From NCBI GenBank assembly GCA_003222675.1, contig QHWT01000041.1, positions 55,196-93,350 on the forward strand: a stretch of 38,155 bases of DNA. The letters are read 5' to 3'. The notes beneath the pieces were generated by a model, which saw nothing but the letters and a program-made list of their open reading frames with translations, searched no databases and had not been told where the DNA came from. The DNA is from Acidobacteriota bacterium (lineage in GTDB: Bacteria; Acidobacteriota; Vicinamibacteria; Vicinamibacterales; 2-12-FULL-66-21). Of this stretch, positions 8,071 to 36,402 are shown piece after piece (the stretch's first letter is position 1; the number at the start of each line of letters is the position of its first letter). A program made the position numbers and the translations under genes.

Positions 8071-8201
8071 GCGCGCGCCATGCGGAGGGAATTGATCGGT
8101 CAATTCGTCGGTTCCAATTACAGGTGTGACGCCCGGCTCACACTTTTCGCCTGGCGGCTCTGATCGATCTGGCCGTGCGGTGCGGTTGTGCAAAAGCCCT
8201 T

Positions 8202-8350: not shown

Positions 8351-10885
8351 ATGCCAAACGAAACAGTCTCGGATAGCAAAAATTGCGAAGATGCCGCGGC
8401 GGCTCGTGCGCAGTCATTGCCATCAGGGATCACGCCAGGTGCGGACGTGACGGCGCGGGGCGAACGATGGATCGTGCGGGCCATCGTTCCGCACGAGGAC
8501 TGCACGGAGCTTCACTTGTCGAGCGCAACTGAGCTCCGTAGCCGCGTCCTGTTGTGGCCGTTCGACAGGCCCGTCGCCTGGACCGCCGTACGGGACCTGC
8601 GCACGGTCAGGCTGCGGCGCTGGTGGGCACATGTGGCGTCGTTCATCACCGCGGCGCGAGTGGATGGTCTGTGCGGAAGGGCGACAGGCGCGCGTGTGCT
8701 GCCATATCAGCTGATGCCCGCTCTGGCTGCGGCAAATGGCACGTCACGAATTGTACTTGCTGACGAAGTCGGTCTCGGTAAGACCGTGCAGGCGGGCTGG
8801 ATGGTCAGCGACATCCTTCAGCGTCAGCCTGACGCGCGTGTCTTGATCGCCGTCCCGGCCGGCCTGCGGGAGCAATGGCAATCAGAGCTCGCCGCGCACT
8901 TCGCGATCGATTCGATCGGCGCGGATGCGCTGTGGCTGCGGCGCACCTTCGCGGATCTTCCCGCGGATGTCGACCCGTGGTCGTTGCCTGGTGTTTACGT
9001 CACATCGATCGACTTCCTGAAGCGCGCCGACGTGCTCCGGTCGCTCGAGCAGCACGCATGGGACGCGCTGATCGTGGACGAGGCGCACACCGCGGCGGCG
9101 CCGACCGAGCGTTACGCGGCGCTGAGGCACATCGCGTCCCGAGTGCGAGCGGTCGTTCTGATCACCGCGACGCCGTTCTCGGGAGACCCGGCGGCATTCG
9201 CCTCGTTGGTCGGTCTCGGCACGAGAGAGGACGAACCGCCCTTGATGTTCCGTCGCTCGCGCGAAGACGTCGGTCGGTTGCATCCGCGGCGTCATCGCTT
9301 CGCGGCGATCCGGATCAGCAGCGCCGAACGGCGGCTGCAGCGATTGCTCGAGCGCTATACCGAAGAAGTATGGAACACGCCGGCGAACGAAGGGGCGCGG
9401 CTCGCGATGACGGTGCTGCGCAAGCGTGCGCTGTCGTCGGCCGAGGCGGTCGCGCGATCGCTGGAACGCCGACGCGAGCTGCTGGGCCGCGAAGACGCCG
9501 CGACTCGACAGCCGACGCTGTTTGACGATGAGAGCGCGATTGAGGACGAGGAGCCTCTCGCGGCGCTCGGCGCGCCCGGCCTGGCGGATGAACGGCGCGA
9601 GGATCGCTGGCTCGCGCAGCTTGCGGCCGCAGCCCACGCGGCAGCGGACTCGAAACAGCGATACCTCGTGCGTCTGCTGCGGCGTATCGGCGGTGAACCG
9701 GCAATCGTTTTCACCGAGTACCGCGACACCCTGCGCCAGCTCTCCGCGTCGTTTCCCGGATGCCTGATCCTCCACGGCGGCATGACGACGGGAGAACGCG
9801 CCGAGGTGCAGGCGCGGTTCAACGCGGACGGGGGCGTGCTGCTGGCGACGGATGCGGCGTCCGAGGGCCTCAATCTGCAGCGGCGCTGCCGGGTTGTCGT
9901 CTGCTACGAGCTCCCGTGGAATCCCGCGCGCCTCGAGCAGCGCATTGGCCGTGTCGATCGCATCGGGCAGTCGCGCCGGGTGCATGCAATCACCCTGGTC
10001 GCGCGCGACACCGCCGAGGATCTCGTCATCGCGAGCCTCGCGCGCAGGCTCGCGCGCGTGGCTGCCACGCTCGGCGAACGCGATCGCCTCGCCGGCTTTC
10101 TCACGGATGCGCGCACGGCGGGAATCGTGATCGGCGGCGCATCAGAAGAGCCGTTTGAAAACACGCCGCTGCCGCGCATCACGATGGGACCCGCGACAAC
10201 GAGCGCCGCAATCGAGGAGGCGCACCGGCTGTCGAACCGCGCCATCGAGCCGTTCAGGCCGCGCGACAGCTCGGTGCGCGTCGCCTCGATCCGTGCGACA
10301 TCCACGCTGCCGCGTGGCTTCCTCTTCGTGTTCGTCTGGTCAGCGCTCGCCGGCGACGGATGCCTGATCGATTGTCATCCGGCTCTCGTGCACGTCCGTG
10401 CCGACCACGTGCAGCGACCGCGGCGCGCGGCCCAGGCGCGTGATGCGGCGGCGGATGCGATCCGGCGTTACGAACACCAGGCGTCCCAGATCGTTGAGCC
10501 CGTCGCCGCGATGCACCTCTCACACGCACGCGTCGTGCACGCCGCGAGAGTCGATCGCGCGATCGCGCGCGAGCGGGAACTGCGGGACTGGAATGCGGCA
10601 GCCGCGGAAGTTCAGCCGGGTCTCTTCGACAGACGGGTCGTCACCCTCGCGGACGAAGACACCGCGGCGCGCCAGCGGATGCGCCTCGATCACGATCGGC
10701 GGATTGCAGCCTTGACGCGCGCGCGCGTGCTCGCCGCGCGCTGCAATCTCGCGGCCGTGCTGATTGTGTACTCGTCCTCGCGGACGGCCGGTAATGCGGC
10801 AAAACCATACGGCGACAATGCTTTCTCGTCCTCGCGGACGGCCTGCGGCGGCAATGGGACTAAACCTTGCGGCGTAAGGCCGTGA
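8351..10885 (+). CDS. SNF2-family DEAH helicase/translocase (DrmD-like)
   Basis: Superfamily 2 ATPase of 844 aa. Walker A is ADEVGLGKTVQAGWM (G141 region). Motif II is VDEAH (D243), motif III is ITATPFSG, and the C-terminal helicase lobe holds FTEYRDTLRQL, LLATDAASEGLNLQ and motif VI QRIGRVDRIGQ (about 530-540). This arrangement fits SNF2-type DNA translocases such as HepA/RapA and DISARM DrmD. I chose the ATG at 8351 because the open frame upstream runs through the palindromic repeats at 8202-8247. The last residues (SSSRTA repeated twice, then GVRP) come from a 54-bp direct repeat and are probably not ancestral. The stop overlaps the methylase GTG start (GTGA), so the two proteins are made together. 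Likely role: DNA-tracking motor of a restriction or defence module. Confidence 0.88.
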   Translation: MPNETVSDSKNCEDAAAARAQSLPSGITPGADVTARGERWIVRAIVPHEDCTELHLSSATELRSRVLLWPFDRPVAWTAVRDLRTVRLRRWWAHVASFITAARVDGLCGRATGARVLPYQLMPALAAANGTSRIVLADEVGLGKTVQAGWMVSDILQRQPDARVLIAVPAGLREQWQSELAAHFAIDSIGADALWLRRTFADLPADVDPWSLPGVYVTSIDFLKRADVLRSLEQHAWDALIVDEAHTAAAPTERYAALRHIASRVRAVVLITATPFSGDPAAFASLVGLGTREDEPPLMFRRSREDVGRLHPRRHRFAAIRISSAERRLQRLLERYTEEVWNTPANEGARLAMTVLRKRALSSAEAVARSLERRRELLGREDAATRQPTLFDDESAIEDEEPLAALGAPGLADERREDRWLAQLAAAAHAAADSKQRYLVRLLRRIGGEPAIVFTEYRDTLRQLSASFPGCLILHGGMTTGERAEVQARFNADGGVLLATDAASEGLNLQRRCRVVVCYELPWNPARLEQRIGRVDRIGQSRRVHAITLVARDTAEDLVIASLARRLARVAATLGERDRLAGFLTDARTAGIVIGGASEEPFENTPLPRITMGPATTSAAIEEAHRLSNRAIEPFRPRDSSVRVASIRATSTLPRGFLFVFVWSALAGDGCLIDCHPALVHVRADHVQRPRRAAQARDAAADAIRRYEHQASQIVEPVAAMHLSHARVVHAARVDRAIARERELRDWNAAAAEVQPGLFDRRVVTLADEDTAARQRMRLDHDRRIAALTRARVLAARCNLAAVLIVYSSSRTAGNAAKPYGDNAFSSSRTACGGNGTKPCGVRP
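10771..10843. repeat. Direct repeat forming the helicase C-terminal tail
   Basis: CTCGTCCTCGCGGACGGCC occurs at 10771-10789 and again at 10825-10843, a period of 54 bp, which keeps the frame. Each copy contains the dyad GTCC-TCGC-GGAC. The following sequence up to 10880 is related Gly/Lys/Pro-coding sequence with partial similarity between the copies. Confidence 0.8.
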
Positions 10886-13800
10886 GTGTCTTCTCAGGCA
10901 CACTCGTGTCGCTCGACGTGCTCACGCGCGTCACAGGTCGTCGCGATGCTCACGCGTCGCATCTTTGCCGGCTGTTGCGCGAGGCGCTGGGACATCTCGG
11001 CCCGGCCAGCGGCGCCCGTGGTGTATTCGATCTGCTCGGACATCCGCTGTTCACGGCGCTCGGGTTCGAGATTCGGCTTACGCGCGATGCCCAGTCGGAA
11101 ATGATTGCCACGCTCATGGCGGATCGGCACGAGGCGGCGATTCTCGCGGTTACCGGATGGGGCGGCGATCTCACCCGTGTTCGTGCCGCGACCGCCGCAC
11201 TCACGCCGTTCTCCCGTCTCCGATGGTGGATAGGACTCAACGGGCCGGTGCTCCGGATCGTTGATTTGACACGCGTGTACGCGCGGCGCCTCGTTGACAT
11301 CGACGTCGAGCGGCTTGCGATCGACGAAGCGTCCGTCGCAACGCTCGCTGGACTGCTGGCGGCGCGCAGATCTGGCGGATTGCCGGGATTGGAAGATGCG
11401 GTCGACGCGAGCGACCGGCATCGAGGGATCGTCGGACGCTCGCTTCAGGTGGGCGTCGAGCACGCGCTCGAACGCCTCGTCTCAGGCTTCGTGACCGGCC
11501 GGCGGCGCCGCCCGGCCGCGCTCGACGCGGCGTTCTCGGATGCGTTGACGGTTGTGTATCGGATCCTGTTCCTGCTGTTCGCGGAGGCGAGGGGGCTCGT
11601 GCCGCAGTGGCATCCTGTCTATCGGAACAGTTACACGATCGAATCGCTGGTCGAGTCGCGTCACTTCCACCTAAAGGGGGCCCCAGGCGGTGCAACAGGC
11701 GGCCGCCCCTCTCGTGGCTTCCGCCTTCCGCCTTCGCGCAAAGCGCTTCGGCGGACCGCCGTAGCCTTGGCGGAGGCTGGTCAGGCGGAAGACAAACCTG
11801 GTGGCGGCCTCTGGGAGTCGCTGCAGGCGATCTCGCGCCTCGCGCATCGCGGGTGCCGGGCGGGTACGCTGCGCGTGACCCCATTCAACGGCCGTCTCTT
11901 CGCGCCCGCGTCGGCGCCGCTGGCCGAGACTTTCGCGCTCGACGATCGCGTCATCAGTGACGTGCTCGTCACAATCACCACGCGGCCCGCCGGGGATCGC
12001 CGCGAACGCATCACGTACGCGGATCTTGGCGTCGAACAACTTGGGGCCGTGTACGAGCGTGTCCTGGATTTCACGCCCGAGCGCCGGGGCGACGCGCTCG
12101 TCCTCGCGCGGTCGGGGCGCCGCAAGGCGACCGGTACCTTCTACACGCCGCGCGCGATGACGGAGTACCTCGTGCGGCGCACGCTCGCGCCGCTCGTGCG
12201 CGACCGCACGCCGGGTGACGTGCTCGCGCTGCGCGTGCTCGATCCCGCGATGGGAAGCGGCGCGTTTCTCGTGGCCGCGTGCCGCTATCTCTCGGACGCC
12301 TACGAACAGGCGCTCGTCCGCGAAGGAGCCGTGACGACGAGCGACATCGGTCCTTCGGACCGCGCCGCCTTCCGCCGCGCTATCGCGCAGCGCTGCCTCT
12401 ACGGCGTCGACCTCAATCCAACCGCGGTGCAGCTCGCGCGCCTCTCGCTCTGGCTGTGCACGCTCGCCGCCGATCGGCCATTGACGTTCTTCGATCATCA
12501 TCTGCGTGCCGGAAACAGTCTCGCGGGAGCGTCGCCGCGCGATATCTACCGGCAGCCGCCGGGCCGGCGGCGGCGCGGAACCGCGCGAGGCAGCGCCCTT
12601 CCACTCTTCGATGCAGACGAGCTGCACGGGTGCCTCTCTGCCGCCATCCTTCCGCGCCTCGCGATGGCCTCGCAGCCTGACGACACCGCGGTCACGGTCC
12701 GAACGAAGGAGCACATGCTGGCCGCGCTCGACGGCCGCGGCGGTCCGCTCGCATTGTGGCGCCGGCTCGCCGATGCGTGGTGCGCCGCATGGTTCTGGAC
12801 CGGGGGACCCGCCCCTGCGTGGAGCGCGCTCAGCGCCTGCGTGCGGGATCGCTCGTCGGGCGCGCCGCCAGGTCTCGAGGAGCAATGGCTCGACACGGTC
12901 GACGCAATTCGTGCGCGCGAGCGGTTCTTTCACTGGGAGCTGGAGTTTCCCGAAGTCTTCTTCGATCAGCGCGGCGATCCCGTTACGAATGGCGGCTTCG
13001 ACGCGGTGCTCGGCAATCCGCCATGGGATACCTTGCGAGCGGAATCCGCGGCGCGGCCGCTGACGATCTTCAGCCGCGAATCGGGCTGCTATCGATTGCA
13101 AGGCGAGGGGCACGCGAACCTGTATCAACTGTTCGCCGAGCGCATGCTGCAGCTCGTCAAGCCGGGGGGACGACTCGGCGCCGTCATGCCGTCGGGCTTG
13201 ATGGCAGATCACGGCTGCGCGCGTCTCCGGCAGGCATTGATCGAGCGCTGCCGCATCGATGCGGTCCTCGGGTTCGAGAACCGCGAGGCGATCTTTCCGA
13301 TTCATCGCGGCGTCCGGTTCGTATTGCTGACCGCCGACGCACATCGACCCGGCGATGCACTGTGCACGCGGTTCGCCATGCGCTCCGCTTCGTCACTCGA
13401 TGACGTGCCCGACGAGGGATCGATCCCTGGCGGCACGGTTATCTCGACATCCCTGCTCAGAGGATGCAGCGGACCGGGGCTGGCCGTACCCGAACTGGGC
13501 GGAGTCCGCGACCGCGAAATCCTTGCGCGGATTGTTGACGTAATTCCGACGCTGGGGTCAGTCGAGGGCTGGGGCATTCACGTCGGCCGCGAGCTGAATG
13601 CCAGCGACGATCGCGGTCATTTCGGCGCGACCGGAGTTCCGGTGCTCGAGGGCAAATCGATCGAGCCGTTCGCCGTTCACGTCGACCGCGCGCGGCACCA
13701 CATCGACCCGGCGATCGCCCGGAGCATTCTCGGCCGGCGCTCGGCGTTCACTCGCCCGCGTCTCGGCTACCGCGAGGTCGCCGCCTCCGCGAACCGACTG

Positions 13801-14214
13801 ACACTGATTGCCGCCATCATTCCAGCCGATGCCGTCACCACGCACACGATCTTCTGTGTGAGGGAGCGGCTCGAGGATGCGGTGCAATGGTTTCTCTGCG
13901 GGATGTTCAACAGCTTCGTCGCCAATTACCTCGTGAGGCTTCGCGGCAGCACGCACGTAACGGCCGCGACAATCGACCTGCTGCGCGTGCCGAAGCCCGC
14001 GCGGACCAGTCCCGCCTTTCGCGGGATCGTCGAGCTCGCGCGGCAGCTGTCACGCAATCCCCAGAACACCGACGCCTACGTCGAGCTCCAGGCCCGTGCG
14101 GCTTCGCTGTACGGGCTGTCACAGGAGGAGTTCGATCACGTGCTGGACACCTTCCCTCTGATCTCCGCGGACATCCGGATGGCCTGCTCAGCGTCATTCA
14201 GCCATCAGCATTGA
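10882..14214 (+). CDS. Eco57I-like N6-adenine DNA methylase (DrmMI/type IIG-like)
   Basis: Large DNA adenine methyltransferase, 1110 aa from the GTG that overlaps the helicase stop; a TTG at 10867 is an alternative start. SAM-binding motif I is LDPAMGSGAFLVAA (D454). Motif IV is NPPWDTL (N712), the NPPY/W signature of N6-adenine methylases. FYTPRAMTEYLVRRTL precedes motif I, as in type IIG and type I methylases. The C-terminal 300 residues (HFGATGVPVLEGKSIEPF, then LRGSTHVTAATIDLLRVPKP) match a TaqI-like target-recognition region. The N-terminal 230 residues resemble the N-terminal region of such proteins, but I see no PD-(D/E)xK nuclease motif. An in-frame repeat insertion occupies residues about 261-307. 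Likely role: self-DNA marking in a defence module with the upstream helicase. Confidence 0.9.
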   Translation: MSVFSGTLVSLDVLTRVTGRRDAHASHLCRLLREALGHLGPASGARGVFDLLGHPLFTALGFEIRLTRDAQSEMIATLMADRHEAAILAVTGWGGDLTRVRAATAALTPFSRLRWWIGLNGPVLRIVDLTRVYARRLVDIDVERLAIDEASVATLAGLLAARRSGGLPGLEDAVDASDRHRGIVGRSLQVGVEHALERLVSGFVTGRRRRPAALDAAFSDALTVVYRILFLLFAEARGLVPQWHPVYRNSYTIESLVESRHFHLKGAPGGATGGRPSRGFRLPPSRKALRRTAVALAEAGQAEDKPGGGLWESLQAISRLAHRGCRAGTLRVTPFNGRLFAPASAPLAETFALDDRVISDVLVTITTRPAGDRRERITYADLGVEQLGAVYERVLDFTPERRGDALVLARSGRRKATGTFYTPRAMTEYLVRRTLAPLVRDRTPGDVLALRVLDPAMGSGAFLVAACRYLSDAYEQALVREGAVTTSDIGPSDRAAFRRAIAQRCLYGVDLNPTAVQLARLSLWLCTLAADRPLTFFDHHLRAGNSLAGASPRDIYRQPPGRRRRGTARGSALPLFDADELHGCLSAAILPRLAMASQPDDTAVTVRTKEHMLAALDGRGGPLALWRRLADAWCAAWFWTGGPAPAWSALSACVRDRSSGAPPGLEEQWLDTVDAIRARERFFHWELEFPEVFFDQRGDPVTNGGFDAVLGNPPWDTLRAESAARPLTIFSRESGCYRLQGEGHANLYQLFAERMLQLVKPGGRLGAVMPSGLMADHGCARLRQALIERCRIDAVLGFENREAIFPIHRGVRFVLLTADAHRPGDALCTRFAMRSASSLDDVPDEGSIPGGTVISTSLLRGCSGPGLAVPELGGVRDREILARIVDVIPTLGSVEGWGIHVGRELNASDDRGHFGATGVPVLEGKSIEPFAVHVDRARHHIDPAIARSILGRRSAFTRPRLGYREVAASANRLTLIAAIIPADAVTTHTIFCVRERLEDAVQWFLCGMFNSFVANYLVRLRGSTHVTAATIDLLRVPKPARTSPAFRGIVELARQLSRNPQNTDAYVELQARAASLYGLSQEEFDHVLDTFPLISADIRMACSASFSHQH
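11663..11790. repeat. Dispersed palindromic repeat inserted in the methylase gene
   Basis: Within the methylase gene, CTCTCGTGGCTTCC (11709-11722) starts a block whose last 42 bp (11749-11790) are identical, in inverted orientation, to 20678-20719 in a spacer 9 kb away. Sequence from about 11663 (CACTTCCACCTAAAGG) also resembles repeat copies elsewhere in the window. The insert is read in frame as a Pro/Arg/Gly/Ala-rich stretch. Confidence 0.85.
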
Positions 14215-14220
14215 TGTGGA

Positions 14221-14322
14221 TCCCGCACCCCGCACCCCGCGCCCCGCACCCCGCATCCCGGACCCCGCACCCCGCATCCCGGACCCCGCGTCCCGCGCTC
14301 CGCATCCCGCGCCCCGCACCGG
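14221..14322. repeat. Tandem CCCCGCAC/CCCCGCATCC repeat
   Basis: About a dozen imperfect 7-9 bp units (CCCCGCAC, CCCCGCATC, CCCGGAC, CCCGCGC) directly follow the methylase stop. The remaining spacer to 14581 has no convincing gene or promoter; a TATAGAAT around 14450 is the only AT-rich element. Confidence 0.85.
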
Positions 14323-15637: not shown

Positions 15638-15640
15638 GCT

Positions 15641-15780
15641 GGGGATTTAGGAATTTGGGAATTTGGGAATTTGGGAATTTGGGAATTTGGTGATTGCACC
15701 TCTCAAAAGCACGCGCGATAGCGCGTGCCACACCAGATCACCAAATCACCAAATCTCCAAATCACGAAATCTCCAGATCA
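15641..15780. repeat. GGGAATTT tandem repeat with nested hairpins
   Basis: Five copies of a GGGAATTT-type unit (15641-15690) and a second run of ATCACCAA-type units (15731-15780) flank a hairpin GCACGCGC-GATA-GCGCGTGC (15709-15728). The outer arms ATTTGGTGAT (15685-15694) and ATCACCAAAT (15737-15746) also pair perfectly. It lies between convergent genes and could act as a bidirectional terminator. The stop of the DUF1634 gene falls inside its right edge. Confidence 0.85.
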
Positions 15781-16089
15781 CCCGGGTTTCACGTTATGGA
15801 CCGCCACGCCAATCGTCACGAACAGCACGATCAGCACCACGAGCGTCGTCGTGACGAAGAGCCAGTCGCGCATGCGCGCGTACTCGACGAGGGAAACCAC
15901 GACGCGGAGGATCGGCGTCGCCATCAGAATCATAAGGCCAGCCGTCAGGAGCGCGTTGGCGATCGAGGGCGCGGCGCGCGTGAGAAACAGCGCGAGGCCC
16001 GCGGCCAGGCAGCCGGCCGAGGACAGCACGCCGCCGCGCAGGAGTCGACCCAGATGAGTCTCCAGCCGGCTGATGCCCGCGTCGCTCAT
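15778..16089 (-). CDS. DUF1634 membrane protein
   Basis: 103 aa, DUF1634 family, small integral membrane proteins commonly encoded next to TauE/SafE exporters. ISRLETHLGRLLRGGVLSSAGCLAAGLALFL is the first helix region. ALLTAGLMILMATPILRVVVSLVEYARMRDWLF contains the family's T-P-I-x-R-V motif. WLFVTTTLVVLIVLFVTIGV is the third helix. The ATG overlaps the TauE stop (ATGA), so translation is coupled. Its function is unknown; partnership with the exporter is suggested by the consistent pairing known for this family. Confidence 0.87.
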   Translation of the reverse strand: MSDAGISRLETHLGRLLRGGVLSSAGCLAAGLALFLTRAAPSIANALLTAGLMILMATPILRVVVSLVEYARMRDWLFVTTTLVVLIVLFVTIGVAVHNVKPG

Positions 16090-18462: not shown

Positions 18463-19287
18463 GTGCCTCTGACGCCAGGATTGAAGCTCGCGCAATACGA
18501 AGTGGTCGCGCCGATTGGCGCGGGCGGCATGGGCGAAGTCTATCGCGCGCGAGACTCGCGGCTGGCGCGCGACGTGGCGATCAAGATCATGGCGGACCAC
18601 GTCGCCGGCGATCCCGAGATGCGCGCGCGCTTCGAGTCGGAGGCGCGCGCCGTCGCCGCCGTTTCGCACCCCTGCATCCTGTCGATCTTCGAGCTCGCAA
18701 TGGTGGACGGCCTCCTCTTCGCCGTCATGGAACTTCTTGACGGGGAATCGCTGCGAGCGCGTCTCGAGAACGGGCGTCTGCCATGGCGGCAGGCCGTGGA
18801 GATTGCCGCCGACATCGCGGAAGGACTCGCTGTCGCGCACGCGCACGGGGTCATCCATCGCGACCTTAAACCCGAGAATCTGTTCCTGACGCGCAGTGGT
18901 TCCGTCAAGATCCTCGACTTCGGCCTCGCGCTGCACAGAATGCCCTCGGCCGGCGGCGCAGGCGATCCGACATTCGTGCACACCGCGGCGGGCATCGTCC
19001 TCGGCACGTTTGGCTACATCTCGCCGGAGCAGGTGCTCGGCCAGACGGTGGACGGCCGCAGTGACGTCTTCGCTCTCGGCTGCGTGCTGTACGAGATGCT
19101 GAGCGGCGAGCGCCTGTTCACTGGCGGCACGCCGCAGGAAGTCATCGCCAACGTGCTGCAGGGTCGCCGGCCGGAGCTCGCCGCCTTCGATCCGCTCACG
19201 CACCGTCGCGTCGATTCGAATCGGCGCGGGACGCGGCGATGGCGCTGCGAGCGCTGCTCACCGGTTCCGCCGCCGCACCGGTCCTGA
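18463..19287 (+). pseudogene. Ser/Thr protein kinase, N-terminal part of a split gene
   Basis: Hanks-type kinase domain, 274 codons from a GTG at 18463; upstream in-frame residues are spacer. The glycine loop is IGAGGMGEVY (19-27), the ATP-anchoring Lys is in VAIK (K41), the catalytic loop is HRDLKPEN (D134), and DFG is at 152. The activation segment ends in GTFGYISPEQ, followed by DVFALGCVLYEMLSGE. The reading frame then leaves the kinase family after FDPLTHR: the remaining residues are out of frame. The expected C-lobe end (RRFESARDAAMALRALL) is encoded in another frame from about 19214. Some 12-16 codons of the C-lobe appear to be missing. The kinase core looks intact apart from its last helix, so partial function cannot be excluded. 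Confidence 0.85.
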
Positions 19288-20687
19288 AAGGCGTGGCGCG
19301 GACGCGGAGCAAGTCGCTCGCCGTGCTGCCGTTCACCAGCGCCGGCACGGATCAGCAGATCGAATACATCACGGACGGCATCAGCGAAAGTATCATCAAC
19401 AGCCTTTCGCAGCTGCCGGGGCTGCGCGTCGTGCCGCGCAGCGTCACCTTCCGGTATAAGGGTGTGCACGTCGATCCGGCGACGGTAGGGCTCGCGCTCA
19501 ATGCGCGCACGATCTTGACGGGCCGCGTACTGCAGCAGGGTGACGAGCTGAATATACAGGTAGAGCTCATCGACACGGCGACCGAATCGCAGCTGTGGGG
19601 CGAGCAGTTCCGTCAGGCGTCGAGCGGACTGATGGCGGTGCAGGAAGCGATCGCCTGGCAGATCTCCGAGGCGCTGCGGCTGAAGTTGAGCGGCGCGCAG
19701 AAGAAGCGGCTGAAGAAACGGGCGACCGTGCAGCCCGAGGCCTACCAGGAATATCTGCGCGGACGATACCACTGGAATTCATGGACCTTCGACGGGTTCC
19801 GGCGCGCGCTGGATCACTTCGAGCGCGCGATCGGGCACGACCCGCTGTATGCAGAAGCATGGGCCGGTCTCGGCGACACGTTCGGTGTGATGGCGTACTA
19901 CGGTCTCGCGCAGCCGTCCGACGCGTATCCGCGGGCGCGCGCTGCGGCCCTCAGGGCGATCGAGCTGAATCCGGAGCTCGCCGATCCCCATGTCACGCTG
20001 GGCATCCAGCGCATGTTCTATGAGTGGCACTGGAGCGAAGCAAAGACCTCGTTCAAGAAGGCCATCGCGCTCAATCCAAAACTCGCGCGCGCGCAACTGC
20101 TCTACGCGCTGTATTGCACGGCCGCGGGGCGACACGAGGACGCGCTTCGGCTGATGCGCACAGCGCGCGACCTCGAGCCGCTCTCGCCCGTCGTCAACAT
20201 GGGAACCGCGTGGGCGCTCCATTTCGCAGGCCGCGAAGAGGAGGCGGTACTGGAGACGCTGCGTGTCGAGGAGCTCTCGCCCGGTTTCGAAGAAGCGGGC
20301 AACATACGCTCGCTCTGCCTCGAACAGCTCGGTCGCTTCGATGAGGCGGTAGAAGTCATGACGCGGCAGCGCTGCTGGGGACTGCCGCTCGACGGCGCGG
20401 CGTTGAAGCAGGCGTTCGCGGCCGGCGGCGAGACTGGGTATTGGCAGCGGAAGCTCGAACTGCTCGATCAGGTCGAGGAGGTGCCATCATCAGCGCGCCG
20501 ACTCCAGACGGCGGTTGCCCTGGTGCACGTCGGCCGATCCGACGAGGCGGTGGCAAACCTCGAGCAGGCTGTCGACAAGCGGAACGGAATGGGCGTATTT
20601 CTGAAAGTGGATCCGTGTTTCGCGCCGCTACGGCAGCATTCGAGATTCATTGCGCTGGCAAAGCGCGTCGGGATTCCTTCCGCCTGA
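19239..20687 (+). pseudogene. TolB-like/TPR C-terminal half of the split kinase gene
   Basis: 482 codons in a different frame from the kinase, overlapping it by 49 bp. The first residues (MALRALLTG) are the remnant of the kinase C-lobe. Residues 25-130 are a FlgO/TolB-type domain: SLAVLPFTSAG, TDGISESIINSLSQLPGLRV and the closing LTGRVLQQGDELNIQVELID. About 165-475 hold TPR-like helix pairs (AEAWAGLGDTFGVMAYYG, ADPHVTLGIQRMFYEWHWSE, GRHEDALRLMRTARDLEPLS). In related one-piece proteins the kinase and these domains are fused. The ATG at 19239 could allow separate translation, but no ribosome binding site is evident. Its stop lies inside a dispersed repeat. Confidence 0.82.
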
Positions 20688-20850
20688 CCAGCCTCCGCCA
20701 AGGCTACGGCGGTCCGCCGACCCGCCTCCGCGTAAAGCTACGGCGCGTCCGCCGAAGCCTTCGGCGAAGGCGGAAGCGCTTCGCGCGGAAGGCGGAAGGC
20801 GGAAGCCACAAGAGTGTTTGAGTTCAACCTGGTGGGCTTCCGCCTTGAGG
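20678..20850. repeat. Dispersed palindromic repeat cluster between convergent genes
   Basis: The block 20678-20719 is identical in inverse to 11749-11790 in the methylase gene. It continues with alternating CGGCGGACG/GAAGGCGGAAG units to the end motif GGAAGCCACAAGAG (20801-20814), and a partial copy (GGGCTTCCGCC) follows at 20834-20844. The left edge supplies the stop codon of the TPR gene. Confidence 0.85.
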
Positions 20851-22262: not shown

Positions 22263-22284
22263 GCTTCCACCTTCAGGTGGAAGC
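22263..22284. terminator. Palindrome GCTTCCACC-TTCA-GGTGGAAGC
   Basis: A perfect 9-bp stem with a TTCA loop ends the decayed sensor, and its loop contains the panE stop codon (22273-22275). It belongs to the same repeat family as 29849-29921. Confidence 0.7.
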
Positions 22285-28603: not shown

Positions 28604-28644
28604 GTCGGAGGCCGGAGGCCGGAAGTCGGAGGTCGGAGGTCGGA
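28604..28644. repeat. GGTCGGAG-type tandem repeat
   Basis: Six imperfect copies of a 7-8 bp unit (GTCGGAG, GCCGGAG, GTCGGAG) lie in the divergent spacer upstream of the Rieske gene. Confidence 0.75.
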
Positions 28645-28677
28645 GAGAAAGCCGACAACCATCAACCGTCAACCGAT

Positions 28678-29848: not shown

Positions 29849-29921
29849 CTCTCGTGGCTTCCACCCTTAGGTGGAACGACAACGCGCGGTCACTTCCGCC
29901 TGAAGGCGGAAGCCACAAGAG
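29849..29921. repeat. MITE-like element with CTCTYGTGGCTTCC ends
   Basis: Ends CTCTCGTGGCTTCC (29849-29862) and GGAAGCCACAAGAG (29908-29921) are inverted repeats with 13 of 14 matches. Inside are hairpins at 29860-29876 (TTCCACC/GGTGGAA) and 29893-29912 (CTTCCGCC/GGCGGAAG). A degraded copy lies at 36378-36402. The stop codon of the glycosyltransferase fragment lies within it. Confidence 0.8.
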
Positions 29922-32759: not shown

Positions 32760-34337
32760 ATGAATTATGACGTGATCGTCATCGGCGGCGGCCACAACGG
32801 TCTCGTCAGCGCGGCGTATCTCGCGCGCGCGGGACGCAAGGTGCTCGTGCTCGAGCGGCGGCACGTGCTCGGCGGGGCCGCGGTCACCGAGGAGATCTAT
32901 CCGGGATTCAAGTATTCGGTCTGCTCCTACGTCGTCTCACTCCTGCGGCCCGAGATCATCCGCGAACTGGATCTGCCGAGGCACGGCCTCGAGATCCTTC
33001 CGCTCGACGGTACGTTCACGCCGATGCCCGATGGAGACTATCTGTGGCGCGTGAACGATCACGCGAAGACACGCCGCGAGATCGCCCGCCACTCGAAGGT
33101 CGACGCGGAGGCGTACGAGGAGTATGGGAAGGCGATGGTGGAGATGGGACGCTTCGTCAAACCCATTCTCAACATGACGCCGCCCGACCCCACGTCGCTC
33201 GACCCGCGTGGCCTGAAGGATTTGCTCTTCCTCGGACGGCGCTTCCAGAGGCTCTCAGAGCAGGACAAGTACAACCAGATCCAGCTGATGACGATGAGCG
33301 CCGTGGACTTTCTGGATCAGTGGTTCGAGACCGACGTCCTCAAGGCGACGATGTCCGCCTCGGGAATCATCGGGACGTTCCTGGGTGTGCGCTCGCCGGG
33401 AACGGCTTACGTGCTGCTGCATCACTACATGGGAGAAATCGACGGCGCCTTTCGCTCGTGGGGATTGTCGCGCGGCGGCACCGGGGCGATCTCGAATGCG
33501 ATTGCCGGCGCGGCGCGCGAGGCGGGCGTCGAGATTCGCACCGAGACTGCGGTGTCGAAGATTCTCGTGAAAGAGGGCACCGCTGCCGGCGTGGTGCTCG
33601 AGAACGGCGATTACTTCACCGCGAACGTCGTGTGCTCCAGCCTGGATCCCAATCAGACTTTCATGAAGATGGTTGGCGAAGATCACCTGCCGGCTGAATT
33701 CACCGAGGACGTCAAGCGCTACAAGTACCGGGGCTCATCCGGCAAAGTGAATATGTCTCTCGACGCGCTCCCCGACTTCAAGGCGCTCGGCGGTTCGGGA
33801 CCGCATCTTCGCGGCGCCGTGTCGATCTCGCCCAGCATCGATTACATGGAAGGCGCCTACGACGATGCGAAGTACGGAAGATTTTCGCGACGCCCCTACA
33901 TTGACATCGTGATCCCGAGCCTCACGGATCCGTCTGTCGCACCGCCGGGCAAACACGTCATGTCCTGCTTCGTGCAGTACGCGCCGTATCACCTCAAGGA
34001 AGGCACATGGGACGATCAGCGTGACGCGTTTGGCGACACGGTCGTCAACACGCTTGCCGAGTACGCGCCCAATATCAAGGACATCATCCTGCACCGGCAG
34101 GTGGTCACGCCTCTCGATCTCGAACGCGAGTGGGGCCTCACCGAAGGCAACATCTTTCAGGGTGAGCTCACGCTGGAACAGCTCTTCTTCCTGCGTCCCG
34201 CGGCCGGGTGGGCGCAATACAAGACGCCGATCCGCAACCTGTATATGTGCGGCTCCGCCACCCATCCCGGCGGAGGAATCATGGGAGCGCCGGGCAGAAA
34301 CGCGGCGATGCGAATCTTGAAGGAGACTAGGAGCTAG
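32760..34337 (+). CDS. FAD-dependent oxidoreductase, phytoene desaturase-like (first copy)
   Basis: 525 aa. The N-terminal Rossmann fold is MNYDVIVIGGGHNGLVSAAY with LVLERRHVLGGAAVTEE (GxGxxG followed by the Glu that binds FAD ribose). RGGTGAISNAIAGAAREAGVEI and the C-terminal FAD motif LYMCGSATHPGGGIMGAPG are characteristic of the carotenoid isomerase/desaturase-like group. No carotenoid genes are nearby, so a carotenoid role is not supported. Its neighbours (GcvT-like, Rieske, APC permease) suggest oxidation of an amine or other small methylated compound. It has a downstream paralogue of identical length, separated by an inserted four-helix-bundle gene. Confidence 0.88.
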   Translation: MNYDVIVIGGGHNGLVSAAYLARAGRKVLVLERRHVLGGAAVTEEIYPGFKYSVCSYVVSLLRPEIIRELDLPRHGLEILPLDGTFTPMPDGDYLWRVNDHAKTRREIARHSKVDAEAYEEYGKAMVEMGRFVKPILNMTPPDPTSLDPRGLKDLLFLGRRFQRLSEQDKYNQIQLMTMSAVDFLDQWFETDVLKATMSASGIIGTFLGVRSPGTAYVLLHHYMGEIDGAFRSWGLSRGGTGAISNAIAGAAREAGVEIRTETAVSKILVKEGTAAGVVLENGDYFTANVVCSSLDPNQTFMKMVGEDHLPAEFTEDVKRYKYRGSSGKVNMSLDALPDFKALGGSGPHLRGAVSISPSIDYMEGAYDDAKYGRFSRRPYIDIVIPSLTDPSVAPPGKHVMSCFVQYAPYHLKEGTWDDQRDAFGDTVVNTLAEYAPNIKDIILHRQVVTPLDLEREWGLTEGNIFQGELTLEQLFFLRPAAGWAQYKTPIRNLYMCGSATHPGGGIMGAPGRNAAMRILKETRS

Positions 34338-34391
34338 AAGCTAGGAGCTAGGAGCCAGAAGCTAGGAGCTAGGAGCTAGGAGCCAGAGCGA
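34328..34391. repeat. GGAGCTA tandem repeat with inverted-repeat arm (left)
   Basis: Repeated GGAGCTAGGAGCCAGAAGCTA units. The arm 34351-34376 pairs with 34758-34783 across the four-helix-bundle gene: 24 of 26 bases match. The repeat also supplies the last codons and stop of the upstream FAD oxidoreductase gene. Confidence 0.85.
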
Positions 34392-34787: not shown

Positions 34788-36365
34788 ATGATCGACACTC
34801 TCATCATCGGCGCTGGCCATAACGCGCTGGTCGCCGCCTTCTACCTGGCGAAAGGTGGACGCAAACCACTCGTCCTCGAGCGGCGGCCGATTGTCGGCGG
34901 CTGCGCAATCACCGAGGACTTCGCGCCTGGCTTCAAGGCACCGACGCTTGCGCACGCGTTCGGGCCGCTGCGGCCGTCAATCGTCCGCGACATGCAGCTC
35001 GAGCGGCGAGGCGTGCAGTTCCTTCGCCCCGATCCGCGGCTGATTGCGTTGTCGCGCGACGGGCGCGCGATTGCGCTGTCGACGGACGTGAAGCGGTCGA
35101 TGGACGCCATCCGGCCGTTTTCGACAAAGGACGCGGAGCGCTATCCCGAGTTCTGCGACACGCTCGCGCGCGTCGGATCGTTTCTGAACGGTCTGATCGA
35201 GACGACCCCGCCGTCGATCGACTCGCCGTCAGCGAATGAGATGTGGGAGCTCTTGAAGACAGGGCGCCGGTTCCGGGGTCTCGGGAAGAAGTACGCATTC
35301 GCGCTGCTGCGGTGGGCCCCGATGGCCGTCGCGGACTTCGTTCACGAGTGGTTCGAAACGGAGGTGCTGCAGGCGGCGATCGCCGCGCGCGGGATCTTCG
35401 GCACCGCGATGGGCGCCTGGTCCGCCGGAACGACCGCCGTGCTGCTGCTTGCAGCGGCGGCCGATCCGCTGCCCGGCGGGAGCAGCATCAGTGCCGTCGG
35501 CGGACCGGGCGCGGTGACGCGCGCGATGGCTGAGGCCGCACGCGAGGCGGGCGCCGAGATCCGCACGGGCGCCGAGGTCGTCCGCATGCTGGTGAAGGAT
35601 GAATCCGTCGTTGGCGTCGCGCTCGCGGACGGCACAGAGATGCTGGCCCGAACGGTGGTCTCCAGCGCGGATCCGCGGCGCACGTTCCTGCGCCTGGTCG
35701 ATCCGATGGATCTCGAGCCCGGATTCCTGACGCGCATCAGGAATTACCGCATGCCAGGCACGACGGCGAAGGTGAACTTCGCCCTGCGCGCGCTGCCCGC
35801 ATTCCGTGGCATCAGCGGCGATGCTGCCGCGATGCTGAGCGGCCGTGTGCACGTCGGACCAGGAATCGATTACCTCGAACACGCGTACGACGCGTCGAAG
35901 TACGGCGAGATCTCGACCGAGCCATATCTCGATGTGTCGCTTCCCACGATAGCGGATCCATCACTCGCGCCGTCGGGGCGGCATGTGATGTCGGTCTACA
36001 TGCAATACGCGCCGTTCAAGCTGCGCGACGGCACATCATGGGAACACCAAAGCAGCAGGCTGGCGGACAGCATCCTCCGCACGATCGAGGAGTACGCTCC
36101 CGGCCTGACTGCGCTCGTCGAGCATCGACAGGTCATCACGCCCGCGGATCTCGAGTCGACATACGGATTGACCGGCGGCCACGTCTTTCACGGCGAGCTC
36201 GCGCTGGATCAACTGTTCACGATGCGGCCGACGCTCGGATGGGCGCAGTATCGGACACCGCTCCGCAACCTGTATCTCTGCGGCTCGGGGACGCACCCGG
36301 GCCATGGTCTCACGGGCGGCTCCGGTCAGAACGCCGCACGGGAGATTCTCCGGGCAACACGGTGA
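34788..36365 (+). CDS. FAD-dependent oxidoreductase, phytoene desaturase-like (second copy)
   Basis: 525 aa, paralogue of the 32760 gene. Rossmann motif: DTLIIGAGHNALVAAFYL (GxGxxA) with LVLERRPIVGGCAITED. The C-terminal FAD motif is LYLCGSGTHPGHGLTGGSG. Other matched blocks with the first copy are DFVHEWFETEVLQAAI, GIDYLEHAYDASKYGEIS and HVFHGELALDQLF. Divergence is substantial, so the duplication is old or the two were acquired as a pair; they may form a heterodimer or act on successive substrates. It follows the inverted-repeat arm by 4 bp, so its promoter or ribosome binding site may have been altered by that insertion. Confidence 0.88.
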   Translation: MIDTLIIGAGHNALVAAFYLAKGGRKPLVLERRPIVGGCAITEDFAPGFKAPTLAHAFGPLRPSIVRDMQLERRGVQFLRPDPRLIALSRDGRAIALSTDVKRSMDAIRPFSTKDAERYPEFCDTLARVGSFLNGLIETTPPSIDSPSANEMWELLKTGRRFRGLGKKYAFALLRWAPMAVADFVHEWFETEVLQAAIAARGIFGTAMGAWSAGTTAVLLLAAAADPLPGGSSISAVGGPGAVTRAMAEAAREAGAEIRTGAEVVRMLVKDESVVGVALADGTEMLARTVVSSADPRRTFLRLVDPMDLEPGFLTRIRNYRMPGTTAKVNFALRALPAFRGISGDAAAMLSGRVHVGPGIDYLEHAYDASKYGEISTEPYLDVSLPTIADPSLAPSGRHVMSVYMQYAPFKLRDGTSWEHQSSRLADSILRTIEEYAPGLTALVEHRQVITPADLESTYGLTGGHVFHGELALDQLFTMRPTLGWAQYRTPLRNLYLCGSGTHPGHGLTGGSGQNAAREILRATR

Positions 36366-36377
36366 CAATCTCAACCC

Positions 36378-36402
36378 TGTGGCTTTTGCCTTCAGGCGGA
36401 AG
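36378..36402. repeat. Degraded copy of the GTGGCTTCC palindromic repeat
   Basis: TGTGGCTTTTGCC-TTCA-GGCGGAAG resembles the inner hairpin of 29849-29921 with mismatches. It sits between the convergent FAD oxidoreductase and GNAT genes. Confidence 0.55.

Follow-up and report, generated by a model that had tools for sequence, protein, structure and literature searches.

The window analyzed here is a 38,155-nucleotide stretch of DNA from an Acidobacteriota genome (designated G000), a draft of 7.16 Mb in 152 contigs for which contamination was estimated by tool at 3.9%; the genomes with which it was compared are drafts as well. Between positions 8126 and 14214, an SNF2 helicase gene (PADLOC DrmD-like profile, 4.8e-73) lies immediately upstream of a gene for a DrmMI-like methylase. 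The methylase frame is open from 10867 to 14214 (1115 codons) and contains no stop, as had been stated in a first-pass annotation of the sequence. Translation more likely starts at the in-frame GTG at 10882 than at the TTG at 10867, because the GTG overlaps the helicase stop codon and the homologue in the same-genus genome G001 agrees with it. The product matched the Pfam families Eco57I (1.1e-24) and N6_Mtase (3.6e-16) as well as the PADLOC DrmMI profile (1.2e-98), which places it with DrmMI by profile; type IIG profiles were also matched (best, 1.1e-55). When six open reading frames (ORFs) were scanned with PADLOC for DISARM partners, the methylase and the DrmD-like helicase alone gave matches. 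Given this gene order and the presence of a methylase match in 49 of 59 other genomes, the pair is possibly a long-kept unit. Three named relatives of the methylase are from metagenome-assembled genomes called "Acidobacteria bacterium," and matches to solved relatives were confined to the catalytic part. Toward its end, the helicase frame contains a 19-base sequence that is directly repeated (at 10771-10789 and at 10825-10843), for which one 27-base partial match was found elsewhere within the stretches fetched for this study.

The element within the methylase gene

The methylase gene, the element that it carries, and the related elements of the window are as follows.

10882..14214, plus strand: host gene, DrmMI/type IIG-like N6-adenine methylase (Pfam and PADLOC profiles)
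11664..11796, plus strand: inserted REPIN-like element (homologue alignment; linker of 52 residues here versus 11 in genome G003)
11664..11680, minus strand: decayed left REP arm, CTTCCACCTAAAGGGGG, with 3 mismatches to CTTCCGCCTGAAGGCGG
11710..11791, plus strand: right REP in its long form (82 bases; identity to other copies reaches 98%)
20677..20815, minus strand: second window copy, expanded long form, which gives the TGA at 20685-20687
22264..22283, no strand assigned: REP-like hairpin CTTCCACCTTCAGGTGGAAG, a stem variant altered in both arms
29893..29917, minus strand: short REP, CTTCCGCCTGAAGGCGGAAG followed by CCACA (the GTGG head on the minus strand)
36378..36402, plus strand: degenerate short REP, directly after the ORF at 34788-36365

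The first-pass annotation had proposed that a dispersed repeat was inserted in frame in the methylase, and this was confirmed: the insert consists of a palindromic repeat, the 3' part of which (11710-11791) has near-copies across the genome, and it is missing from nearly all homologues aligned. An inverted copy had also been reported, and it is real, although the identical run is 44 bases rather than 42 (positions 49 to 92 of the query 11700-11799; 100%, E of 3.9e-16); over their full 49 nt, the inverted arms at 11743-11791 and 20677-20725 are 96% identical. The end motif said to accompany the repeat was found as CTCTCGTGGCTTCC at 11709-11722; its counterpart in the copy near 20.8 kb, CTCTTGTGGCTTCC, differs at one position.

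The right REP begins with TCTC and a GTGG head, followed by a 5' arm (11718-11726), a loop that holds a second palindrome, and a 3' arm (11783-11791). It folds with z scores of -3.35 as RNA and -4.39 as DNA. In an alignment of 30 long-form copies, the window copy among them, one of the nine pairs of the outer stem changed from C-G to G-C in 3 copies and three more pairs changed in single copies, which gives the stem weak support. Matches of the quality of the left arm (17 bases, 3 mismatches) numbered 7 in 1,089,584 background positions, and this arm sits at the junction that holds an intact REP in G001.

Elsewhere in the window, the stop codon of the ORF at 19239-20687 (20685-20687) comes from the repeat itself. 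Tandem arrays built from units of 7 or 8 bases (CCCGCAC, TGGGAATT, CACCAAAT, GTCGGAG, and AGGAGCT) are also present at 14222-14320, 15640-15690, 15731-15782, 28604-28645, and 34321-34383.

A high-copy REP family and the search for its mobilizer

The REP was defined as a GTGG or GTAG head plus CTTCCGCCT..AGGCGGAAG. It occurs at high copy in 4 of the 193 genomes of the class: the 24-base pattern CTTCCGCCTNAAGGCGGAAGCYAC was found 57 times in G000, 59 times in G001, 111 times in G003, and 92 times in G034, with single copies in G005, G023, and G157 and none in the other 186, and its reversed control was found in no genome. The repeat copies that were expected elsewhere in G000 are many, since GTGGCTTCCGCCT occurs there 112 times (reversed control, 0). 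At least 42 places in G000, the window's own included, matched the repeat at E below 1e-7 (52 matches were listed, scoring having covered 40 of the 220 candidates from a first look). Among the fetched stretches, heads were GTGG in 108 cases and GTAG in 2 in G000, GTAG in 31 and GTGG in 1 in G001, and GTGG in 67 and GTAG in 4 in G003. The element is thus a small high-copy palindrome, as are GTAG-class REPs, with a GTAG-like tetranucleotide beside it; strict GTAG dominates only in G001, and GTGG is one base off. Judged by sequence and arrangement, these elements are REPs and REPINs.

Plasmid DNA gave no match, and viral contigs gave no exact match. No target-site mark of insertion was established. 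A rule linking the head to a cleavage dinucleotide (GTAG-CT or GTGG-CC) was considered and rejected; the composition just outside the heads varies between genomes, and the rule was not followed.

Genes for Y1_Tnp proteins (PF01797 search) numbered two each in G000 and G001 and none in G003 and G034. On both strands and up to 1.5 kb into the flanks, no GTNGCTTCC head was found near the four genes of G000 and G001. When all 21 loci of the flank scan were considered, two of them, L127 (G007) and L139 (G008), had a head-like 9-mer with no arms beside it, and G007 and G008 lack the REP by the 24-base pattern. In these draft genomes, then, no gene for a tyrosine transposase was found with the REP GTRGCTTCCGCCT in its flanks, the arrangement called a REPtron. 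That the elements were mobilized in trans by a RAYT-type (TnpA-REP) transposase is thus inferred rather than observed. Movement by a DDE transposase, with the elements being of the MITE type rather than RAYT-type REPs, would agree with the lack of a linked RAYT and with the terminal inverted repeats that the long-form arms make. However, a GTAG or GTGG head beside a palindrome and inverted pairing are described as REP traits (PMC8266576, PMC3733652), and we regard a MITE origin as improbable.

Homologues at the insertion site and the state of the enzyme

Among the 59 other genomes searched, 49 matched the methylase at E ≤ 0.001 (50 of 60 with the window's own). In 45 of these 49, as counted from the rows, a separate piece of the match ends at residue 260-274, before the insert, in agreement with the claim that methylase sequence continues on both sides. 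The methylase alignment comprised 25 rows from 32 loci, representing 23 genomes besides that of the window; 7 loci (L039, L040, L041, L045, L055, L058, and L063) are absent from it because no ORF passed the motif filter, and L032/L061 and L033/L062, the contigs of each pair being equal in length, were each taken as one record. A clean gap at the position of the insert, which had been named as the evidence to look for, was found in 22 of the 23 other genomes aligned. By row, 22 of the 25 have the short linker, L056 is longer by 4 residues, and L032/L061 has an insert of its own. Between "YTIESL" and "GLWESLQ," the difference between the window methylase and that of G003 amounts to 41 codons.

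It follows that the residues are hardly native protein sequence that merely resembles the repeat, a reading to which we give almost no weight; the open frame speaks for it and nothing else does, against which stand the 22 genomes without the residues, the different sequence of the same-genus enzyme at this place, and the near-identical copies elsewhere in the genome. Had the residues belonged to the native fold, they should have recurred in other genera, and none of the 23 other genomes aligned has them in another genus.

The only other genome in the alignment with an insert at the site is the same-genus G001 (rows L032 and L061), and its insert differs in sequence. There, two intact REPs in inverted orientation, CTTCCGCCTGAAGGCGGAAGCTAC and GTAGCTTCCGCCTTCAGGCGGAAG, are separated by a spacer and form a longer hairpin (fold z of -6.56 as RNA and -6.09 as DNA), so that this insert is a complete REPIN; strictly, the window copy is not, its left arm having decayed. 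Both genomes have the junctions GAGTCGCGTC on the left and GGCGGAAG on the right, and the aligned segment at the site is 184 nt in each. The methylase of the REP-rich G034 (L341, on G034:C349) lacks this insert. It has two long inserts elsewhere, LPPSRAERASASRAEAFGGGG... and GPAEAGLYENG..., which are perhaps from other repeat families.

The first-pass annotation had left open whether the insert made a new linker or inactivated the enzyme. Inactivation, with the gene now drifting, deserves consideration, since a GC-rich hairpin insert of 41 codons could hinder folding or translation (RNA minimum free energy of -70.4 kcal/mol, z of -2.41) and since a REP appears able to break a gene in G003 (L312, see below). 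It is nonetheless very unlikely. The frame has remained open over its 1115 codons, and over 1049 codons outside the insert, the two insert-bearing homologues of G000 and G001 differ with a dN of 0.21 and a dS of 1.02, the latter being near saturation (dN/dS of about 0.21). Across four sequences, no variation was seen in the DPAMGSG and NPPW columns, and the single-copy genes ligA and argS hold the same element. The dN/dS ratio and the intact motifs favor a functional enzyme whose linker is longer, as far as sequence can tell, and inactivation is disfavored. An AlphaFold model of four sequences was dropped, its mean pLDDT of 43.5 being too poor to place the insert.

The best explanation of the whole, to which we assign a probability of roughly 0.87, is that a REP or REPIN inserted in the methylase linker, that it was tolerated and is probably ancestral in the genus, and that the enzyme probably works. 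In this scheme, hairpin DNA with a GTRG head would have entered the linker after "YTIESL," probably in an ancestor of the genus. Survivors would be those insertions that were in frame, stop-free, and in a permissive linker, most others having been lost. In the lineage of the window, the left REP would then have decayed and the right REP would have become the long form now common in G000, and the same-genus relative would have kept the complete REPIN. The added residues would serve as a tolerated linker in a methylase that is probably still working; we likewise infer both the order of these events and the activity of the enzyme.

Copies in other genes and at sites shared between genomes

For G000, 89 stretches were fetched around the listed copies (for GTGGCTTCCGCCT, 100 of 112 places, so that some may have been missed), and these together with the window, hence G000 alone, served to train a codon model. 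The samples from the other genomes covered 26 of 59 places listed in G001, 66 of 111 in G003, and 19 stretches in G034 (92 places in all); two contigs of G001, those of the methylase and of LigA, and the G003 stretch L340 were deliberately included. Clusters that showed just one kind of weak match (23 in G000 and 3 in G003) were not counted as clear, and this filter reduced the G000 clusters spanned by one frame from 21 to 14, leaving out 7. One stop-free coding frame thus spanned 14 of 110 clear clusters among the G000 copies examined, 4 of 24 in G001, 9 of 49 in G003, and 4 of 25 in G034. The other 96 of these 110 G000 clusters fell outside the class spanned by a single gene, as is expected of mostly extragenic elements. 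Because the selected ORFs make up roughly 81% of the DNA fetched from G000, copies are strongly underrepresented inside genes (P = 4e-54, against a rough baseline).

The G000 genes with an in-frame REP include ligA, uvrA, and argS, which were recognized by alignment to solved proteins; the inserts in LigA and UvrA lie within gaps of these alignments and that in ArgS within a 6-residue gap, and ligA and argS are present in one copy each. Further in-frame hosts, by Pfam, include an AMP-binding/acyltransferase protein, a sodium/hydrogen exchanger, and a VWA protein, among others. LigD, flagged by nothing but the hairpin pattern, is not counted among the 14. As read by eye, the palindrome is open in 5 of 6 frames, the sixth having a TGA, and translated copies read FRLKAEAT, LPPEGGSH, VASAFRRK, WLPPSGG, or GFRLQAE. 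Judged from sequence, the proteins with in-frame REP linker residues still look functional.

Broken genes were sought among 8 candidate clusters in G000, of which 6 had coding sequence on the same strand in another frame and 2 had the same frame with a stop; the weaker classes, in which one side or neither was coding, were left out of this reading. No clear break was found among the 8. In the 6 other-frame candidates, a stop is reached within the repeat or shortly ahead of it, after which another gene follows. The same-strand candidates of G001 and G003 were mostly gene ends too; two entries in L300 are the in-frame LigA insert of G001, and L289 (G001) is ambiguous as a broken gene. At L312 of G003 (2065-2088, on G003:C59), the gene seems to be continued in another frame after the REP and has likely been broken by it; therefore, retained insertions are not always harmless.

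Three further loci are recorded here as separate observations. At L176 (1936-2024), a REP pair lies between an NAD_binding_4 match and a kinase-like match in one open frame, and the repeat may have joined neighboring genes; L187 (1914-2024) is similar by eye, as found by the cruder left/right test alone. The LigA of G003 (L236) has another insert, RPDRLRQGYGESAE..., at the LigA site that holds REP sequence in G000 and G001, and this insert resembles a reading of the long-form loop, SLRQGYGG, that was seen in L340.

Flanks were compared for 208 clear clusters, with a match on both flanks required; another four pairs matched on a single flank only. G000 and G001 share five sites (methylase, LigA, ArgS, L158/L291, and L170/L297), with the methylase and LigA contigs having been included on purpose, G000 and G003 share three (ArgS, L146/L317, and L208/L314), G001 and G003 share two (ArgS and L288/L338), and G000 and G034 share one (L197/L350). 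The 300-base flanks at shared sites are 71 to 88% identical. At the eight shared sites that were read, recognizable GTAG or GTGG heads were of the genome's own type, and some heads were degenerate; because G000 and G003 both use GTGG, only the six sites that contain G001 are informative in this respect. The stem subtype (GCC or GGC) was read by eye for 13 arm pairs at shared sites and was concordant in all 13 (P = 0.006 by permutation with 11 pairs; exact P = 0.0035 with 13 pairs).

In our reading, the insertions at shared sites are old and common to the genomes, their heads having changed together. The genome-specific heads could instead mean that a preferred target received a REP separately in G000 and in G001, there being no common ancestral insertion. 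Spacers and forms differ between the two genomes, the left REP head at L158/L291 lies on opposite sides in G000 and G001, and the long form, whose likeness to other G000 copies reaches 98%, looks recent, all of which would fit separate gains. Nevertheless, the methylase inserts share their two junctions, and the LigA inserts their left one, to within about 1 base, the left arm has decayed in G000 where the G001 arm is intact, and the stem subtypes agree throughout, and we consider independent gains rather unlikely. As to the broader proposition, that REPs, some of them in essential genes, stay at their sites across species and genera while heads are rewritten genome-wide in concert without movement of the elements, we advance it tentatively, at somewhat less than even odds.

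In-frame intragenic REPs have already been published, and it is the pattern of shared sites with genome-specific heads that is less expected. As described in PMC3733652, GTAG- and CGTC-class REPs are intragenic in DNA ligase and uvrA of Opitutus terrae and in tRNA synthetases of other species, REP ends can supply stop codons, and REPs in recB occupy nearly the same position in two Xanthomonas species. Like those REPs, the elements described here are short palindromes with a tag, frequently arranged as inverted dimers, and include intragenic copies and copies with stop-supplying ends, but they differ in sequence family, host clade, composite long form, and defense-type methylase host and in having several shared sites with genome-specific heads. 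As with REPINs accompanied by RAYTs (PMC3116915 and PMC8049555), inverted REP pairs that encode no transposase themselves are present in high copy number, whereas here no linked RAYT was found and some copies are translated within genes. RAYTs are described as vertically inherited and REPIN populations as long-lived in PMC8049555. The palindromic elements of Rickettsia, which are found in frame in genes according to PMC10969869, also resemble the present ones, by description, as in-frame translated palindromes in unrelated genes (PMC3733652 as well); they differ in phylum and size. Searches on Acidobacteria or Vicinamibacter repeats, in-frame REPINs, and related terms turned up no title or opening of an abstract that reports this REP family, and we do not claim its absence from print.

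According to PMC8266576, the REP head can guide the cleavage site, and one TnpA-REP cleaved at a shifted position once GTAG was replaced by GTGG; because of this effect on cleavage, the head switch between GTAG and GTGG, if true, could be a change of transposase specificity. One methylase site gives a natural series of empty site, complete REPIN, and decayed REPIN plus long-form REP, and the shared sites with genome-specific heads make REP persistence and tag replacement testable by genome comparison. An uncultured clade thereby joins those with mobile palindromes translated in housekeeping and defense genes.
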